A DNA stretch of 64,000 nt from NCBI GenBank assembly GCA_016200325.1, contig JACQEZ010000009.1, positions 62,001-126,000 of the forward strand. Direction: 5' to 3'. The notes under the pieces are model-generated. The model was not told where the DNA came from and ran no database searches. It saw nothing but the letters and a program-made list of their open reading frames with translations. Below, in pieces: positions 37,089 to 49,340 of the stretch. Each line of letters begins with the position of its first letter. Position 1 is the first letter of the stretch. The position numbers and the translations under genes are program-made. The DNA comes from Candidatus Manganitrophaceae bacterium (GTDB taxonomy: Bacteria > Nitrospirota > Nitrospiria > SBBL01 > Manganitrophaceae).

Positions 37089-38969
37089 TTATTTCGGCTT
37101 GATCTTCGGGTTGATGATTCTCCCCATCTCGTGGATAAAATATGACGGTTCCCTCACCTCGTTTTGCACATACCGGGAATGGGTGATGTAGACCCGATCT
37201 TTGGCCCGCGTGATGCCGACATACATCAGGCGTCTCTCTTCTTCGATGCTCCCTTTCACATGAGGCAAGGTTCCCTGAAGGGCGCCGATCACAAACACGA
37301 CACGAAACTCCAATCCTTTTGCGCCATGCAATGTAATCAGTCTGATGCCTTTTTTCTCCTTTGGCACCCCACCCTGGATCGCCGAGATCGCCATCTCGTT
37401 TAGGAAATTGATCAGATTCGGGCCGGCGCTCAGCTCGAATTGGTCGGCCATCTGAGCGAGTTCCTTTAAATACCCAATCCTCTTATTGACGTCCTCCTTT
37501 CCTTTACAAAATTTCTGAAGGTGGGCGACATAACCGAATTCGACCGCGGCGGCCCGCATGAGATCCGAAATACAGAGGTCGGCCATTCTGTTTCTCAGCC
37601 GATCCAAACGCTCGAAGAGCCGAACGAGCCCTTCTCTCGCCTCTCCTTGGACATATTCATTCTCGACCGCCATTTCAGCCGCATGATTCAGGGAAACTCC
37701 CTCCCGCTCCGCCAGGTCCTCCAAGAGATCGGCAACCCGGGCGCTGACCCCAGACTCCAACTTGAGTAAGCGCTCATACGCCGATGTGTTTTCCGGAAGG
37801 GCGACCGCGGTGATCAGGGCCAGCATATCTCGGACCTCCCGATGATCGTAGAAGGAGCGGTCTCCCGCTTTGCGGCAGGGAATACCCAGGCGATTTAAAG
37901 CCCCTTCCGCCTGGGCCAGCTGAACATGACGCCGGGCAAGAATCGCGATCTCTTCGGGAGGAATGCCCCGTTGAAGATGCGCCTGAATTTCCCGCGCGAC
38001 GAACTCTCCCTCTTCGGTCTCCGACCCAAACCCTCTAATTTCGATGGTCCCTTCTTCTTCCCTGACAGAGGAAAGCTCTTTTTGAAACCGTGTAAAGTTG
38101 TTCTTGATCAACGCCGCCGCCGCGGTCACGACCAACCTCGGAAGACGGAAGGTTGCATTCAGCGTGATGATTTTCGGAGAGAAATCGGCGACAAAATGTT
38201 TTAGGACGTCCGGGGTGGCCGATCTGAATGAATAAATCGACTGGTCGTCGTCTCCCACAACTACGATCCCCCGGTCCTTTCCCAGAAGGGAGATCAGATG
38301 GTACTGCGCGAGGTCGACGTCCTGAACTTCATCCACGATCAGATGATTCCAGAGCGCGCGGACCTCGCCCAATATCGCCGCATCCTCGGTAAAGAGCCGA
38401 AGGGTGAGGTAGATTAAATCATTGAAGTCGATGCATCCTTGAAGACGCATCCGCTCCTGATAGAGGTTGAATATTTCGACGAAATCGCTTTTCTCCTGAG
38501 CCAGGCCTTCTGAAGAACTAAATTGAGCCTTTACCCGGCCGATCCGGCCGCCGAGTTCGGTCAGATCCAAAGCGGCCTCATTCAGACCGAGTTGCCGAAT
38601 GGTGTCTTTGAGAATTTTGTTTGACTGCTCGGTGGAAGCGATGTTGAACGCCCCGCTGTATCCTGCGAGCTTGTGAATATGCATTCTCAGAATCTGCGCG
38701 CAGGCGCCGTGGATTGTTCGGATCCAAGAGAGACGTTTGCCGCTCAAGAAGAGAATTCGGTCCCGCATCTCTTGGGCTCCCCGGTTGGTGAAGGTAATGC
38801 CGAGAATCTTTTCAGGATCCTCGCCCTCCTGTACCAGTGCTGCGATCCGGGTCGCGATCGTATGGGTCTTCCCCGTTCCCGGGCCGGCGAGCACCAAAAG
38901 CGGACAGCCTCGAGAAAGCGCGGCCTCTTTCTGCTCAGGGTTGAGTCGTTCCAGATTGAGCGCTTCCAA
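37089..38969 (-). CDS. UvrD/PcrA-family SF1 helicase
   Basis: A 626-residue 3'-5' DNA helicase. Motifs: LAGPGTGKTHTIATRIA (Walker A), GITFTNRGAQEMRDR (Ia), HLIVDEVQDVDLAQY (II), VVGDDDQSIYSFRSA (III), LNATFRLP (IV), LITLHGAKGLEFRVVFV (V) and YVGITRAKDRVYI (VI). It is slightly shorter than chromosomal UvrD. The start is a TTG at 38969 with GGGGGG in front, inside the 3' end of the primase gene (35-bp overlap), so both are coupled. It probably serves replication or repair of the element. Confidence 0.93.
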   Translation of the reverse strand: MEALNLERLNPEQKEAALSRGCPLLVLAGPGTGKTHTIATRIAALVQEGEDPEKILGITFTNRGAQEMRDRILFLSGKRLSWIRTIHGACAQILRMHIHKLAGYSGAFNIASTEQSNKILKDTIRQLGLNEAALDLTELGGRIGRVKAQFSSSEGLAQEKSDFVEIFNLYQERMRLQGCIDFNDLIYLTLRLFTEDAAILGEVRALWNHLIVDEVQDVDLAQYHLISLLGKDRGIVVVGDDDQSIYSFRSATPDVLKHFVADFSPKIITLNATFRLPRLVVTAAAALIKNNFTRFQKELSSVREEEGTIEIRGFGSETEEGEFVAREIQAHLQRGIPPEEIAILARRHVQLAQAEGALNRLGIPCRKAGDRSFYDHREVRDMLALITAVALPENTSAYERLLKLESGVSARVADLLEDLAEREGVSLNHAAEMAVENEYVQGEAREGLVRLFERLDRLRNRMADLCISDLMRAAAVEFGYVAHLQKFCKGKEDVNKRIGYLKELAQMADQFELSAGPNLINFLNEMAISAIQGGVPKEKKGIRLITLHGAKGLEFRVVFVIGALQGTLPHVKGSIEEERRLMYVGITRAKDRVYITHSRYVQNEVREPSYFIHEMGRIINPKIKPK

Positions 38970-39963
38970 TATATCCCCCCTTTCTGATGTATTCGTTGAT
39001 ATCGCATCCAGCCGGCAGATGCAGCTTTAGACACAAGCTGTTTCTCCGGTGCAGCTCCTCCCCGACCCATGCCGCGGCTTTTTCGCCGGCGGGATCGGGG
39101 TCCAGGCAGAGGACCACTGTTTTGCCTGCAAAGAGATCGAGCCAATGCTCGTCAAAACCCCACGTTCCGGGACTGCCGATCGCGGGAAATCCAGATTGGA
39201 GCATCGTCAGGGTATCGATCTCCCCCTCGCAGATGAAGAGGACCGACGATTCCGCGATGAGGTCATGGTGATAGAAATAAGCGGCCCGTTCGGTCATCGC
39301 AAATCGCTTCACCCTCTGTGTGACCGCTTCCTCTTTGGTCAAAAGGCACCGGCCTTGAATCGATTGAATCCTTCCCTCGATATAGTAGGGAAAGAGAAGG
39401 AAAGGGAGCTGCTGTTTGGCGAAAATGTAAAAGTGCGTCAACCCAGCCGCCTTCAGGATCTCCAACCCATATCGATCCCGAAACCTCCGATAAGCCGAAA
39501 GGTACCGATCGGGAGAGAGATACCCGACTTTCATCTTCTCGATGGTCTCTTTTCGGATTCCGCGCGACGCGAGATATTGAACCCCCGTCTCCTCCACCGG
39601 CGCCGCATTCATGAACGCCTGAAGGAGCTCGCTCTTCCTCTCCGGACTGATGGACACTGCGTCCGTCGACCGCGCCTGGACCCTCTCTGAAGGATACCGC
39701 TCCCTTCCTTCCTGAAGAAAGGAGATCGCCTCTTTAAAGTCGAGACCGAGGACCTGCATGACCAGGTCAATGACCGATCCCTCGACACCCCGGCAGACGT
39801 AACAGTGAAACTGGTTTTTATTGAGGTTCAACCGGAGGGAAGGGTTGCGATCGGGTTTATGCGAGAAACAGTGGGCCAGCTGTCCCTTTACCTCCAATCC
39901 AAGGCGTCTTGCGACCTCCTGGATCGGGATTTCCTTTATTTCATCCAATGGTTGTGAGATCAA
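38935..39963 (-). CDS. DnaG-like primase, shortened
   Basis: A 342-residue primase. The CHC2-like zinc finger is seen as LAHCFSHKPDRNPSL...FHCYVCRG. The Toprim domain has LFICEGEIDTLTMLQSGFPAIGSPG and VLCLDPDPAGEKAA. The C-terminal helicase-binding domain of DnaG is absent. I take the TTG at 39963 as start, since GGGAGG lies just upstream and the longer reading (to 39999) runs into a hairpin at 39976-40010. It is followed by the coupled uvrD gene, giving a replication pair for the element; no replication initiator is recognised in the window. Confidence 0.88.
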   Translation of the reverse strand: MISQPLDEIKEIPIQEVARRLGLEVKGQLAHCFSHKPDRNPSLRLNLNKNQFHCYVCRGVEGSVIDLVMQVLGLDFKEAISFLQEGRERYPSERVQARSTDAVSISPERKSELLQAFMNAAPVEETGVQYLASRGIRKETIEKMKVGYLSPDRYLSAYRRFRDRYGLEILKAAGLTHFYIFAKQQLPFLLFPYYIEGRIQSIQGRCLLTKEEAVTQRVKRFAMTERAAYFYHHDLIAESSVLFICEGEIDTLTMLQSGFPAIGSPGTWGFDEHWLDLFAGKTVVLCLDPDPAGEKAAAWVGEELHRRNSLCLKLHLPAGCDINEYIRKGGYIGSAQSGTTQP

Positions 39964-39975
39964 ATGAACCTCCCG

Positions 39976-40010
39976 GAGGCAGGCCCTTGCGAAAGGCAAG
40001 GACCTACCTC
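39976..40010 (-). other. Hairpin abutting the primase ribosome site
   Basis: GAGG-CAGG-CCTTGC pairs with GCAAGG-CCTA-CCTC around a short loop. On the minus strand it runs directly into CGGGAGG, the ribosome site of the primase gene, with no U-run. It could control translation rather than end transcription. Confidence 0.5.
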
Positions 40011-41893: not shown

Positions 41894-41914
41894 AGAGCGA
41901 TCCTCATAAGAAAA

Positions 41915-41951
41915 GCAGACCCCGGGAGGATTCTCTCCGCCCGAGGTCTGC
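41915..41951 (-). terminator. Intergenic hairpin with U-rich tail
   Basis: GCAGACC-CGGG pairs with CCCG-GGTCTGC. On the minus strand TTTTCTTAT follows, then at once GAGGATCG, the ribosome site of the next gene. The distance to the start codon is 21 nt. Confidence 0.62.
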
Positions 41952-42011: not shown

Positions 42012-42176
42012 CTAGAAGCTCCATATCCGGCATCCTTGAGAATCGATTGAAAAGTTGTGGATCCGATCCGGCTGGCGCTGCCCCTTCTGAAAACAGAGCG
42101 GCGAGCTTCCTTTCCCTGTCGGTCCATTCCCCTGCCATTTTGCGAGAAATCTGCCTCCGATCGAAGATCTTTTCAT
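42012..42176 (-). CDS. Small basic protein, paralogue of the one at 48704-48901
   Basis: A 54-residue protein below usual ORF cut-offs. I selected this frame because it aligns with the 65-residue protein at 48704-48901: GGRFLAKWQGNGPTGKGSSPLCFQKGQR here, GGKFLARWNGEAPKGHESSPLCYQRGQR there. The upstream context is also shared (AGGAGGAA/A-ACCC-ATG, then the repeated small-RNA locus). A different overlapping frame (42007-42195) starts at an ATG 19 nt upstream but has no paralogue. Function unknown; it is basic, with one conserved Cys. Confidence 0.72.
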   Translation of the reverse strand: MKRSSIGGRFLAKWQGNGPTGKGSSPLCFQKGQRQPDRIHNFSIDSQGCRIWSF

Positions 42177-42220
42177 GGGTATTCCTCCTCGTCATGTTTT
42201 TGTGTGGTTACTGATTTCGA

Positions 42221-42249
42221 TTGACAAGAAGGCCCCAAACCAGTAGACT
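42221..42249 (+). promoter_or_regulatory. Promoter of predicted small RNA, copy 1
   Basis: TTGACA (42221-42226), 17-bp spacer, TAGACT (42244-42249) on the plus strand. Both hexamers and the spacing are identical in copy 2 at 48947-48975. The surrounding genes run the other way. Confidence 0.75.
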
Positions 42250-42255
42250 AAAATC

Positions 42256-42327
42256 TGAGTTGAAAATGGTCTCCTGAATAAGGGGCCTTCGAAGGGGTCA
42301 ATCAGTTCGAGCTGGTTGATCCCTTTT
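42256..42327 (+). ncRNA. Predicted small RNA, copy 1 (antisense to backbone genes)
   Basis: About 72 nt, start estimated 7 nt after the -10 box. The body contains GGTCTCCT, an anti-Shine-Dalgarno-like element, then GGGGCCTTCGAAGG. It ends in the hairpin GGGGTCAATCAG / CTGGTTGATCCC (42294-42323) followed by TTTTTG. Copy 2 keeps promoter, body and terminator while one stem position changes U-G to U-A and the loop differs. It overlaps the last codons of the gene at 42298-42525 in antisense. Trans-acting regulation of SD sites is an inference. Confidence 0.65.
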
Positions 42328-42525
42328 TGTTTTCCTCGCGCTTCCCTGAAGGAGTCGATGGATCCGAATTTCCCGCAGATATTCCTTCCCCTCAGGAAAC
42401 GCGAACTCTTCCTCCCTTCGGACGAGCTTCAAGCCGGCCGCGGCCCTTCGAATATAAACCCTGGCCTTTGCCGCTTCGGTCGATAACACATCTTCGTTCG
42501 GGGTTGCTGTACAAGTCATCGTCAT
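42298..42525 (-). CDS. Small unknown protein ending in the small-RNA repeat
   Basis: A 75-residue protein, not recognised, with a basic helical middle (AAKARVYIRRAAAGLKLVRREEEF). Its last codons (KRDQPARTD) are the complement of the small-RNA terminator; the gene at 49029-49340 ends the same way (KRDQSAVTD). AAGGAGG lies 7 nt before the ATG at 42525. Confidence 0.6.
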   Translation of the reverse strand: MTMTCTATPNEDVLSTEAAKARVYIRRAAAGLKLVRREEEFAFPEGKEYLREIRIHRLLQGSARKTKRDQPARTD

Positions 42526-42801: not shown

Positions 42802-42829
42802 TTGACAGCCAAGCGGAACGGTTGATAAA
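42802..42829 (+). promoter_or_regulatory. Plus-strand promoter, nearly leaderless
   Basis: TTGACA (42802-42807) and GATAAA (42824-42829) with a 16-bp spacer. The predicted start is within a few nt of the ATG at 42838, so the message would be leaderless or nearly so. Confidence 0.5.
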
Positions 42830-42837
42830 CTCTGGGC

Positions 42838-43141: not shown

Positions 43142-44305
43142 ATGCAATTAATCTCAAACACCGACTCCTCAAATCCCGAAGACCTCACTAAGAACACTGC
43201 GGAGCAATTTATTGGAAATCATTTGAAAATGATCCGCCAATTTTTGGCCTCCTCCGACCAGGTTTTAATCGCAAGCCCATTTTTGTATCGCGACTTCGGT
43301 CCCCTCTTTAAAGACTTAACTCTTTCGGGGCTTAAAGATTTAACCCTCGTGACAACATGCAGGCCCTGGAAAGACGACCAACTCGTTAAGCCGTACTCGA
43401 TTAGAAGTTTTGTCGACTCGCTTCGATCGTGCAGCTCTATCAGGTGGCCTGTTATACATATCGATCAGAAATTACACGGGAAGGTTTACCTATTTAAGAA
43501 AAACGGAAAATACACAGACGGTATCGTGACATCGGCGAATCTGACTGGGAAAGGGCTCGACGGCAATCATGAATGGGGCGTTCTCATCAACGACCCGGAG
43601 ATATTGACTCGCCTAGAGGCCCAGATCATCGCCGGCGTCGATTATGTTTCGATCAGGGAAGATGGGCTGAAGATGCTCTGTGACACAGTTGATATATTTA
43701 ATCGCGCCAATAAACAAACTACAAAACCTCCAGAAATCGACATTGATATCGGTCTCGACAACATCCTCAATCACTACTGCACCCCAAGCGAGGGAAATCA
43801 TAATATCGTTCTTAGGAAAGGCGCTCAGTATTTCATTAAGGTCTCCGGGGTCACGGGTCGACCAATCCTCCCGATCGATCGACGCCCTTTCGACCAACCC
43901 CACGCTGAATTATCGTTTGCCAAGCAGCCGAAGAACCTTCGACTCGGGGACTGTCTATTGGAAGTTGCGGTGGGAGAGATGTGCTTCCTGAGTTATTATG
44001 CCTGCGCCAGCGCCGTTCGTGAACGGACCGACCAGGAACGCAGGCAGGACGCGGACTGCGCAAGATGGCCATTCTATATCTACGCCAATAACCTTTCATT
44101 GGCCTATGGCAAGATTTGGTTTGACCAACCTCTATATTATGACCAAGTTATATCCGATTTCAAAACGGCCTTCCCGAATATCGATATCACGCCTTCTGGT
44201 AAAGAGGATTTCAAAGGCGCCATTCAATTGGGTCATAGTTATATCCGAGTGACCGACGAATTCGGAAAATTTGTAAGAGAGAGGTTAGACAAAGCTGGTC
44301 CATAA
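43142..44305 (+). CDS. Phospholipase D-like nuclease family protein
   Basis: A 387-residue protein with a PLD-type catalytic motif: LHGKVYLFKKNGKYTDGIVTSANLTGKGL (H-x-K, then S-A-N) at residues 112-142, preceded by SSDQVLIASPFLYRDF at the N-terminus. The C-terminal 200 residues are unrecognised, mixed alpha/beta. Only one HxK motif is seen, so it would act as a dimer, as in nucleases of this superfamily used in DNA processing or defence. It is the only long plus-strand gene between 15.2 kb and the right end and may be a late insertion or an independently controlled defence gene. Confidence 0.78.
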   Translation: MQLISNTDSSNPEDLTKNTAEQFIGNHLKMIRQFLASSDQVLIASPFLYRDFGPLFKDLTLSGLKDLTLVTTCRPWKDDQLVKPYSIRSFVDSLRSCSSIRWPVIHIDQKLHGKVYLFKKNGKYTDGIVTSANLTGKGLDGNHEWGVLINDPEILTRLEAQIIAGVDYVSIREDGLKMLCDTVDIFNRANKQTTKPPEIDIDIGLDNILNHYCTPSEGNHNIVLRKGAQYFIKVSGVTGRPILPIDRRPFDQPHAELSFAKQPKNLRLGDCLLEVAVGEMCFLSYYACASAVRERTDQERRQDADCARWPFYIYANNLSLAYGKIWFDQPLYYDQVISDFKTAFPNIDITPSGKEDFKGAIQLGHSYIRVTDEFGKFVRERLDKAGP

Positions 44306-45784: not shown

Positions 45785-47995
45785 TCAGCACCGGCTATAG
45801 CCGCACTCCACGTTCGGACACTTCATGCACCCTTCCTGCATCCGCATCGTGTCTTTACATTCGGGACACGGCTCGGTGATTGTGACCGGCTGGCCGACGG
45901 AATCCATGACCTTTTGAATTCCTCCGTTGATCGCCATCAAAGGAACCCGGATGTCGCCGTACTCCCGATGAACTTCATGGAGATGATGGGCGATCCTTGT
46001 GATCGATCCCCCCAATCGCAGAATCTCCGAACCAAAGCGGCCGACGATCGCAACCAGGCTCTGATGCTGTCCTAAGGCCGGGTTGGCGAAGATCTCCCGC
46101 GGTTTTCCATTCAGGAACGCGACGTGAATATACGCGTTCCCATCCTTCGTTCGAACGCGGACCCGTTTCTCGTCGACGATATCCGGCAAATCCAGAACAT
46201 CGCCCCAGTGAAGCATCCCTTGTAAATCTCCTGTACCGTTTCCATTTTCCTTCGCGCTGACCTTTCCGACATTCATCACCTGATCCGGCCGGCTGCCATC
46301 CCGGTAGACGGTGATTCCCTTGCAGCCTGAGTTGTAAGCCAAAAGATAGGCCTCCTTCACCTCCTCGACGGTTGCGTGGGGAGCGAGATTGATCGTCTTG
46401 CTGACGGCCGAGTCGCTGAATTCCTGGAAAGCGGCCTGCATCAAGACATGCCATTTGGGCGAGATCTCATGCGCCGTTACGAACACTTGTCTCCATTCCA
46501 GCGGGATCTGCTCGAGTCCCCGGACCGATCCATGGTTCTCGATGATCTGATTCGGAAGATCGTCGCTCCAAAAACCCTCTCGCTTCGCCACCTCAACAAA
46601 GTAGTCGAGCGCATAAGAGAGCTTCTCTCCCCCCATCACGTTCTTGTACCAGATCAGGGAGAATTCCGGCTCGCACCCTCCGGAGGTATCGGCGATCATG
46701 GAGATCGTCCCGGTCGGCGCGACCGTGGTGATGTACGAGTTGCGGACCTTCTCTCCCCTTTCTTCATGACGGGATCCGCTCCAGTTCGGATAGACCCCTC
46801 TCTGTTCCGCGAGACGTTCCGACTCTTGATACCCGGTGTCTCGAATGAACGCCATGACCTGTCGGGCCGTCTCGAGTCCCAATTCCGAGTCGTAAGCGAT
46901 GCCCAATTTAAACAGCATCCGCGCGAAGCCCATGATTCCCAACCCGATCTTTCGATTCGCTTTCGTGACCTTCTCGATCTCCTTCAGCGGGTACCGGTTC
47001 ATATCGATGACGTTGTCGAGAAAATAGATGGAAGATCGAATCGTTTCCTCCAGCGCAGGCCAATCGATCCTGTATTTTCCATTCTCCTCGATGAGGTGCC
47101 GCTCCAGACTGACGCTTCCCAAGTTGCAGCTCTCGTAGGGCAGCAACGGCTGTTCTCCGCACGGATTGGTCGCCTCGATTGAACCAATGAGAGGCGTGGG
47201 GTTGGTCTTGTTCGCCCGATCGATGAAGAAGAGTCCCGGCTCGCCCGTTTTGTGCGCTTGCCGTGAGATCTGCTCCATCACCTCCCGGGCCGATATTTTC
47301 CTGACCACCTCCCCGGTCCGCGGATTGACGAGCGGATAATCCTCTCCCTTTTCGAGCGCCTGCATGAAGCTGTCGGTGATCGCGACTGAGATGTTGAAAT
47401 TAATCACCTCCCCCGTGTCTTCCTTGCACCGGATGAAATCCAAGATGTCCGGATGATCGACCCGGAGGATCCCCATATTCGCGCCGCGCCGTGTGCCACC
47501 CTGTTTGACCGCCTCCGTCGCATGATTAAAGACCTTCATGAAGGAGATCGGTCCCGATGCGACGCCGCCGGTTGTCCGAACGTGATCGTTCTTCGGCCGA
47601 AGCTGGCTAAAGGAGAAGCCGGTGCCGCCCCCGGTTTTATGAATCATCGCCGTCTGCTTGATCGCATCGAAGATCTCCTCCATCGAATCTCCGACCGGCA
47701 GGACGAAACAGGCCGAGAGCTGCTGCAGATCCCGGCCGGCGTTCATGAGGGTCGGCGAATTCGGAAGAAACCGAAGATCCGACATCAGCCGATAGAACTC
47801 TTCCGAGACTGAATCGATATCGGCGGCCGGATCATAGAGTCGATCGGCTTCGGCGATGTTCCAGGCGACCCTTCTAAAAAGCATCTCCGGTGTTTCGACG
47901 ACTTTCCCATCTTCCTTCATTAAATAACGCTTCTCGAGGACAAGAAGCGCATTCGATGTGAGCCCTTTCTTTTTCTCCGTAGGTTCGAGTTTCAT
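45785..47995 (-). CDS. nrdJ: Class II (B12-dependent) ribonucleotide reductase
   Basis: A 736-residue adenosylcobalamin-dependent ribonucleotide reductase that makes dNTPs without oxygen dependence. Landmarks: SPTLMNAG and LSACFVLPVGDSMEEI near the N-terminus, KTGGGTGFSFSQLRPK, PCGEQPLLPYESCNLGSVSL (active-site loop) and ATVAPTGTISMIADTSGGCEP. The C-terminal zinc ribbon has CPECKDTM and CPNVECGYSRC. It is complete. AGGAG lies 8 nt before the ATG. Phages and large plasmids often carry their own RNR to secure nucleotides, and here it stands with primase and helicases. Confidence 0.96.
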   Translation of the reverse strand: MKLEPTEKKKGLTSNALLVLEKRYLMKEDGKVVETPEMLFRRVAWNIAEADRLYDPAADIDSVSEEFYRLMSDLRFLPNSPTLMNAGRDLQQLSACFVLPVGDSMEEIFDAIKQTAMIHKTGGGTGFSFSQLRPKNDHVRTTGGVASGPISFMKVFNHATEAVKQGGTRRGANMGILRVDHPDILDFIRCKEDTGEVINFNISVAITDSFMQALEKGEDYPLVNPRTGEVVRKISAREVMEQISRQAHKTGEPGLFFIDRANKTNPTPLIGSIEATNPCGEQPLLPYESCNLGSVSLERHLIEENGKYRIDWPALEETIRSSIYFLDNVIDMNRYPLKEIEKVTKANRKIGLGIMGFARMLFKLGIAYDSELGLETARQVMAFIRDTGYQESERLAEQRGVYPNWSGSRHEERGEKVRNSYITTVAPTGTISMIADTSGGCEPEFSLIWYKNVMGGEKLSYALDYFVEVAKREGFWSDDLPNQIIENHGSVRGLEQIPLEWRQVFVTAHEISPKWHVLMQAAFQEFSDSAVSKTINLAPHATVEEVKEAYLLAYNSGCKGITVYRDGSRPDQVMNVGKVSAKENGNGTGDLQGMLHWGDVLDLPDIVDEKRVRVRTKDGNAYIHVAFLNGKPREIFANPALGQHQSLVAIVGRFGSEILRLGGSITRIAHHLHEVHREYGDIRVPLMAINGGIQKVMDSVGQPVTITEPCPECKDTMRMQEGCMKCPNVECGYSRC

Positions 47996-48946: not shown

Positions 48947-48975
48947 TTGACAAAAAGGCCCCAAATCAGTAGACT
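48947..48975 (+). promoter_or_regulatory. Promoter of predicted small RNA, copy 2
   Basis: TTGACA (48947-48952), 17-bp spacer, TAGACT (48970-48975), identical in hexamers and spacing to copy 1. Confidence 0.75.
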
Positions 48976-48981
48976 GATTCT

Positions 48982-49059
48982 TGAGTATCAGAAAGAATGG
49001 TCTCCTAATAAGGGGCCTTCAGAAGGGGTCAATCAGTTACCGCTGATTGATCCCTTTTT
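48982..49059 (+). ncRNA. Predicted small RNA, copy 2
   Basis: About 78 nt on the plus strand. The body carries GGTCTCCT and GGGGCCTTC as in copy 1. It ends with GGGGTCAATCAG / CTGATTGATCCC (49025-49053) and TTTTTC. The 5' portion is less conserved and longer than in copy 1. It is antisense to the last codons of the membrane protein gene at 49029-49340. Confidence 0.65.
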
Positions 49060-49340
49060 CTTTGTAAGAGTGTCCCGTTTGTTCTCTCTTCAAGCCCGGA
49101 CCGATCGCTCAAAGGGATAAAGACCTTCTGAGCCACCTGGTAGATCCATCCGAAGAGAACCACGGCGAGCGCGAGCATGAACACCGAGACCCCCAGGTTG
49201 GCCAAAGCGCCCGATGGGTAGCCCAAGATCATCCCCGCCCCCGCCCAGAGAAACAAGACCAGGGTCGAAACCAGAATGACCCCGCTGAACACCAACAGGG
49301 ACAAAACGGTCCCGTGAAAGATATTCTGATACGTCTTCAT
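49029..49340 (-). CDS. Small membrane protein with two helices
   Basis: A 103-residue protein with two long hydrophobic segments (TVLSLLVFSGVILVSTLVLFLWAGAGMIL and LGVSVFMLALAVVLFGWIYQVA) and a basic tail whose last residues are encoded within the small-RNA repeat. Not recognised. A good ribosome site (GGGAGG) precedes the ATG at 49340. Confidence 0.65.
   Translation of the reverse strand: MKTYQNIFHGTVLSLLVFSGVILVSTLVLFLWAGAGMILGYPSGALANLGVSVFMLALAVVLFGWIYQVAQKVFIPLSDRSGLEERTNGTLLQRKRDQSAVTD

Follow-up and report, generated by a model that had tools for sequence, protein, structure and literature searches.

Does a short plus-strand transcription unit embedded in a block of minus-strand genes encode a genuine regulatory RNA and, if so, which gene does it regulate? 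The question is raised by a locus in a 64,000-nucleotide stretch of DNA from a Candidatus Manganitrophaceae bacterium (hereafter, the window), in which the original prediction placed a small RNA, present in two copies, that would act on the Shine-Dalgarno (SD) sites of several surrounding genes. Our analysis supports this interpretation in part, and points to a small open reading frame (ORF) on the opposite strand as the likely target. The coordinates of the features discussed below are collected in Table 1.

Table 1. Features of the two element copies and their immediate surroundings in the window
Feature	Position	Strand	Basis or remark
Terminator-like hairpin and T-run downstream of small ORF 1	41910..41951	-	read from sequence
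Small ORF 1, 54 aa (MKRSSIGG...CRIWSF), proposed target	42012..42176	-	family of 16 ORFs in 8 genomes
SD arm of stem S, GACGAGGAGG	42184..42193	-	
Promoter of small RNA copy 1: TTGACA (42221-42226), 17-nt spacer, TAGACT (42244-42249)	42221..42249	+	direct
Anti-SD arm of stem S, reads CCTTCTTGTC	42223..42232	-	RNAalifold consensus, 10/10 pairs in copy 1
Stem L, 3' arm, outer part, reads GGGGCCTTC	42228..42236	-	in promoter spacer of small RNA
Predicted antisense small RNA, copy 1, ~75 nt	42255..42330	+	promoter-to-terminator span, RNA fold
Small RNA hairpin 1, GGUCUCC / GGGGCC	42268..42287	+	strand stability, compensating changes
Stem L, 5' arm, outer part, reads GAAGGCCCC	42282..42290	-	region complementary to small RNA
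Intrinsic terminator hairpin and T-run	42291..42330	+	stem 42291-42326, 16 pairs, then T-rich tail; kept in all copies
Upstream ORF, 75 aa	42298..42525	-	homologous to upstream gene of plasmid copies
Small ORF 2, 65 aa	48704..48901	-	
Promoter of small RNA copy 2, TTGACA-17-TAGACT	48947..48975	+	
Predicted antisense small RNA, copy 2	48982..49060	+	

The plus-strand RNA gene and its distribution

The predicted promoter, with hexamers TTGACA and TAGACT, and the stem-loop and T-run that follow it are all present. Transcription of copy 1 would start about 6-7 nt past the -10 box, and the predicted RNA folds at -32.7 kcal/mol (z = -4.8), a stability equalled by none of 200 shuffled sequences. The second copy, which spans 48947-49060, also proved real, having the same promoter and 81% identity to copy 1 over 68 nt (42265-42332 versus 48996-49063). 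A further good promoter-like site, TTGACA-18-TAAACT with TG ahead of the second hexamer, lies on the plus strand at 42802-42831.

Altogether, 16 full-length copies of the element were compared, all from genomes and plasmids of a single order, the Troglogloeales. The -35 box TTGACA is invariant in these copies, the -10 box reads TA[AG]ACT in every one of them, and the two-hairpin body, both arms of the terminator and the T-run are kept throughout, such that the element cannot be put down to chance. Hairpin 1 is more stable as plus-strand RNA than as its reverse complement in 15 of the 16 copies and shows compensating changes in the G9, G13 and G14 copies (GGUCUUU/GAAGGCC in G9, GGUCUUC/GGAGGCC in G14a and GUCUCU/AGAGGC in G13a). 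The most variable segment is the loop proximal to the transcription start, which is 42% identical among copies compared to 82-86% for the promoter and terminator, a variability reminiscent of antisense recognition loops. The possibility that this conservation is due to the minus-strand reading of the neighbouring protein ends, which would have undone the original prediction, was rejected because the promoter, hairpins and terminator remain constant across locus types whose flanking upstream proteins are different. With these parts conserved in 16 copies, the locus is almost certainly an evolved plus-strand small-RNA gene.

According to blastn, three plasmid records of Candidatus Manganitrophus (Nitrospirota, Troglogloeales) contain the element, and it is also present in the whole genomes of the relatives G002, G003, G004 (congeneric with the window genome), G005, G009, G013 and G014. 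The covariance search proposed as a check of the original prediction recovered 15 full copies, with E values from 1e-23 to 1e-30, in 8 of the 18 genomes of the order. Across a phylum-wide sample of 296 genomes, every strong match to the RNA model falls within the order, and no convincing member was found outside it. A weak match in another family of the phylum (G132:C32:27462-27584; E 4.9e-4, 25.8 bits) is close in strength to self-palindrome matches and is probably due to chance. No relatives were found by an exact-pattern scan of the genome contig collection or by pattern and protein scans of a viral contig collection. In Rfam, neither the window nor six relatives produced a match at the gathering threshold, and nothing convincing emerged at permissive thresholds, the best weak match being to BjrC68 (E 0.028, 17.7 of 39 bits). 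One extra element-like match, at CP114562.1:76706-76825, is accompanied by no ORF, has a degenerate terminator and, to judge from these losses, is a decayed relic of the element; the Manganitrophus plasmid that carries it has SAVED-domain, helicase and restriction genes close by.

The surroundings of the element in the window also resemble plasmid DNA. The minus-strand genes for a CHC2/Toprim primase-like protein and a UvrD helicase at 37089-39999 show approximately 68% DNA identity to Manganitrophus plasmid backbones, which suggests that the window is part of a Manganitrophus-type plasmid or of an integrated relative. The DNA around the minus-strand gene for a B12-dependent (class II) ribonucleotide reductase, at 45785-47995, likewise looks plasmid-type, and the synteny of the reductase gene with the small ORF is kept in several genomes. 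The block also includes a lone plus-strand gene (43142-44305) encoding a PLD-like/NgoFVII-type nuclease domain.

The small protein encoded opposite the RNA

Each intact element is located 31-47 nt upstream of the minus-strand ATG of a small ORF of 54-65 aa, with the consensus MKxxxxGGKFLAxWQGEGPxGRxSSPLxYQKGQREEDRRLxYxxDSDGARxWSF; small ORF 1 is below the 60-aa cut-off of the ORF listing. A profile of this family retrieved 16 ORFs in 8 of the 18 genomes of the order, the same 8 genomes that contain the strong RNA-model matches, and none elsewhere in the phylum sample; a pattern-seeded search of genome contigs for the ORF yielded solely Manganitrophaceae and Nitrospirota MAG contigs. Elements and small ORFs correspond one to one, with the exception of one ORF copy whose element runs off the end of a contig, and no intact element without a small ORF was found, the sole clear ORF-less element being the decayed relic. 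As the constant partner of the element, the small ORF is its likely target.

The median dN/dS of the small ORF is 0.17 over 23 usable pairs, and codon positions 1, 2 and 3 differ by 0.30, 0.25 and 0.55, respectively; judging from these substitutions, the ORF is under purifying selection. The C-terminal part of small ORF 2 appears to be frameshifted relative to the family ending GARxWSF, which could be decay or an assembly error. The encoded proteins are basic and hydrophilic, with pI of 9-11 and GRAVY of -0.75 to -1.34. They have no usable match in Pfam, NCBIfam, PHROGs, PADLOC or PDB; the best match to a phage protein is not significant (E 0.7), and the AlphaFold model is of low confidence (pLDDT 55). 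The small protein is perhaps a regulator or effector of the maintenance of the mobile element.

In the direction of the mRNA, most copies show the order ~104-aa gene, element, small ORF, ~140-aa gene and class II ribonucleotide reductase; the neighbours are different in the plasmid copies, copy 1 and G14b. A terminator-like hairpin comes after the small ORF in the plasmid copies and in copy 1; the one in the window, which was not returned by the consensus scan, suggests that the mRNA of small ORF 1 ends there. No promoter for a minus-strand mRNA was detected near either copy, except for a single weak site located downstream of ORF 1, so that the mRNA presumably enters from the upstream gene.

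Predicted alternative structures of the mRNA leader

The leader of the small ORF can form a long stem, L, in which GAAGGCCCC, located opposite the small RNA, pairs with GGGGCCUUC, located opposite the promoter spacer. The inner helix of L varies by clade with pairing kept (CAG/CTG, CGG/CCG, ACTCAG/CTGAGT and ATTCAA/TTGAAT). When the arm-to-arm energies of each leader's own arms were compared with those of swapped arms, none of 20000 permutations was as good, and only 2 of 20000 were when the permutations were restricted to clades. In an alignment of the 15-bp stem, which was registered by hand and leans towards structure, 91% of the cells are paired and 5 pairs are changed on both sides; the covariation score of L is 0.308, compared to at most 0.118 when the arms are slid by one to three columns. 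The stability of L favours the mRNA sense in 13 of the 16 copies, and two outer columns contain changes from C-G to U-G in that sense.

A second stem, S, can be formed by CCUUCUUGUC, opposite GACAAGAAGG of the promoter, and GACAAGGAGG in the SD region. Unaided, RNAalifold recovered from the mRNA alignment part of L and this anti-SD:SD hairpin, whose anti-SD arm shares positions with the -35 box as well as with the 3' arm of L. Because S shares CCUUC with L, the two stems are mutually exclusive. S pairs at 8-10 of 10 positions in all 16 copies (only 8 of 10 without a bulge in G14a, G14c and G9). The support for S is weaker than that for L: permutation within clades gave no significant result (1800 of 20000), and other leaders in the window reach 9/10 complementarity.

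When the region complementary to the small RNA was blocked in silico, the mean predicted anti-SD:SD pairing rose from 0.37 to 0.90; with the SD region shuffled, it was 0.37. This switch was predicted for 15 of the 16 copies, the exception being G14b. S is already a competitor of L in several of the unbound leaders (0.92 in G14c and 0.80 in G3a), so that the sharpness of the predicted switch varies among copies.

The reading that we favour, with a probability of about 0.7, is that of a cis-encoded antisense RNA switch that represses translation of the small protein by refolding its mRNA; likely, then, the RNA controls the small ORF in cis. According to this model, a plus-strand sigma70-type promoter would produce an RNA of ~75 nt with two hairpins, the second serving as terminator, and this RNA would be complementary, without mismatches, to the central part of the leader of the minus-strand mRNA for the conserved basic protein of ~54 aa. 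Without the small RNA, the leader would fold into L, with the anti-SD held in the 3' arm, and we propose that the ribosome site would thereby be left relatively free. The small RNA would pair with the loop and 5' arm of L, freeing the 3' arm; the freed CCUUCUUGUC could then pair with GACAAGGAGG, and the resulting hairpin S would hide the SD site and repress translation. Several components of this model are apparent from the aligned sequences, namely the promoter, terminator and hairpin 1, L with its covariation, the complementarity within S, and the linkage and selection of the ORF; expression of both strands, repression and the direction of regulation are what we infer.

Rival readings and known antisense systems

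In the original prediction, the body of the RNA was held to expose GGUCUCCU, through which the RNA would pair in trans with the SD sites, such as AGGAGA, of several genes of the block and repress them. One match fits this idea well: all of GUCUCCUG can pair with CAGGAGAC, which precedes the ribonucleotide reductase gene at 47995, with a duplex energy of -23.8 kcal/mol, but this match is not kept in relatives. GGUCUCCU itself sits in the 5' arm of hairpin 1, where its mean probability of being unpaired amounts to 0.13 for copy 1 and 0.15 for copy 2; the compensating changes in hairpin 1 identify it as a stem rather than an exposed seed, and it is not conserved, being replaced in relatives by GGUCUUU, GGUCUUC or GGUUCU with the partner strand compensating. 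Neither is the pairing predicted with the 35 leaders in the window distinctive, its mean of -13.6 kcal/mol being close to that of shuffled RNA (-12.4, sd 0.8), and it is the small ORF that constantly accompanies the element, rather than the genes that have AGGAGA sites. Thus, we found neither the exposed, conserved anti-SD seed of a trans-acting SD-blocking small RNA nor target complementarity that is both conserved and above the shuffled background, and the trans-targeting idea, including the reductase leader as a target, was rejected as quite improbable. The conservation of the inverted repeat GAAGGCCCC...GGGGCCTTC, which is strong and overlaps the promoter spacer, could alternatively reflect a DNA operator to which a repressor binds; the repressor might be the small protein, which is basic, and the transcript would be only a short decoy. 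Under this interpretation, it is difficult to account for changes in L that obey RNA pairing, including G-U in the mRNA sense, for the greater stability of L as mRNA in 13 of 16 copies and for an inner helix that covaries without a common sequence; we consider an operator highly improbable.

Two further alternatives retain the antisense RNA and differ in the role of the small ORF. Type I toxin-antitoxin systems, for example SymE/SymR, combine a small ORF with a cis-antisense RNA that covers or controls the ribosome site and are carried on mobile DNA. The locus described here resembles them in having a small ORF with a cis-antisense RNA on mobile DNA, in occurring in multiple copies per genome and on plasmids, and in the decay of the element where the ORF is lost; if the small ORF were a toxin and the RNA its antitoxin, the RNA mechanism would be the same, so that this alternative overlaps with the cis-antisense switch. 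However, the small protein does not look like a small hydrophobic or membrane toxin: with a pI of 9-11 and a GRAVY of about -1, it differs from most type I toxins, which are hydrophobic; it matches no model in the libraries searched, PADLOC included, and most copies of the ORF belong to a conserved cluster upstream of the ~140-aa gene and the class II ribonucleotide reductase. A toxin-antitoxin pair therefore seems rather unlikely. Alternatively, the small ORF could be a leader peptide of the repY/tap type, with translational coupling or readthrough letting the antisense RNA control the downstream genes (for the ~140-aa protein and the reductase): the ~140-aa gene follows shortly after the ORF in about ten loci and, where the contig allows, the reductase comes next. 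Yet the plasmid copies, copy 1 and G14b either have other genes in these positions or lack them, the plasmid copies and copy 1 show a terminator-like hairpin after the ORF, and the amino acid sequence itself is under selection, all of which makes a leader peptide an improbable explanation.

Among the characterized antisense systems, the cis-antisense switch proposed here is most readily compared with the ctRNA of repABC plasmids of the p42d type, the gene of which lies in the repB-repC intergenic leader of the controlled gene (PMC3155836). Without the ctRNA, the repABC leader folds into a large stem-loop that leaves the SD free, and ctRNA binding results in a different downstream structure (PMC3155836). 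In its sequence anatomy, the element follows the same plan: the antisense gene lies within the leader, on the strand opposite the regulated gene, and has a promoter and a terminator of its own. Alternative leader structures in which the SD is free or sequestered, depending on whether the antisense RNA is bound, are predicted here too, with L covarying. Unlike in repABC plasmids, the target is a basic protein of ~54 aa rather than RepC, encoded downstream of repA-repB in one operon, the neighbours are the ~104-aa gene, the ~140-aa gene and the class II ribonucleotide reductase, the bound state is predicted to be a hairpin over the SD instead of an intrinsic terminator, and several copies per genome occur, in Nitrospirota. 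No match to a ctRNA family in Rfam was found in the window or six relatives. The element is best read by analogy, as probably working like the repABC ctRNA while being unrelated to it in sequence and target, and hence not as a member of that family.

In IncFII, IncB/pMU720 and pSK41 plasmids, an antisense RNA acting against alternative leader structures controls translation of a short ORF or of Rep. The predicted competition of the antisense RNA with alternative leader structures is shared with these plasmids, but no Rep gene follows here, and the small ORF is conserved at the amino acid level and often followed by other types of genes or by a terminator. The predicted antisense RNA represents a new family, with a new probable target.

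A literature search did not find such an antisense RNA in the manganese-oxidising Manganitrophus and its relatives. More tentatively, we suggest that the module is an undescribed one, confined to one order of Nitrospirota, in which the promoter DNA (the -35 box and spacer) would also encode the switching arm of the mRNA. The small basic proteins that it may control would form a new family, taking part in the maintenance or copy control of large plasmids and integrated elements or serving these as a toxin that is unusual in being non-hydrophobic, and several orthogonal copies per cell would be told apart by their variable loops. The present analysis adds a probable antisense-RNA switch from Nitrospirota, specifically from the manganese-oxidising Manganitrophus and its relatives, and ties it to an undescribed family of small proteins encoded on large plasmids and chromosomal-size contigs. 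The two mutually exclusive structures and the variable recognition loop make the proposed switch testable by precise point mutations, and the presence of several copies per genome does the same for cross-talk and incompatibility.
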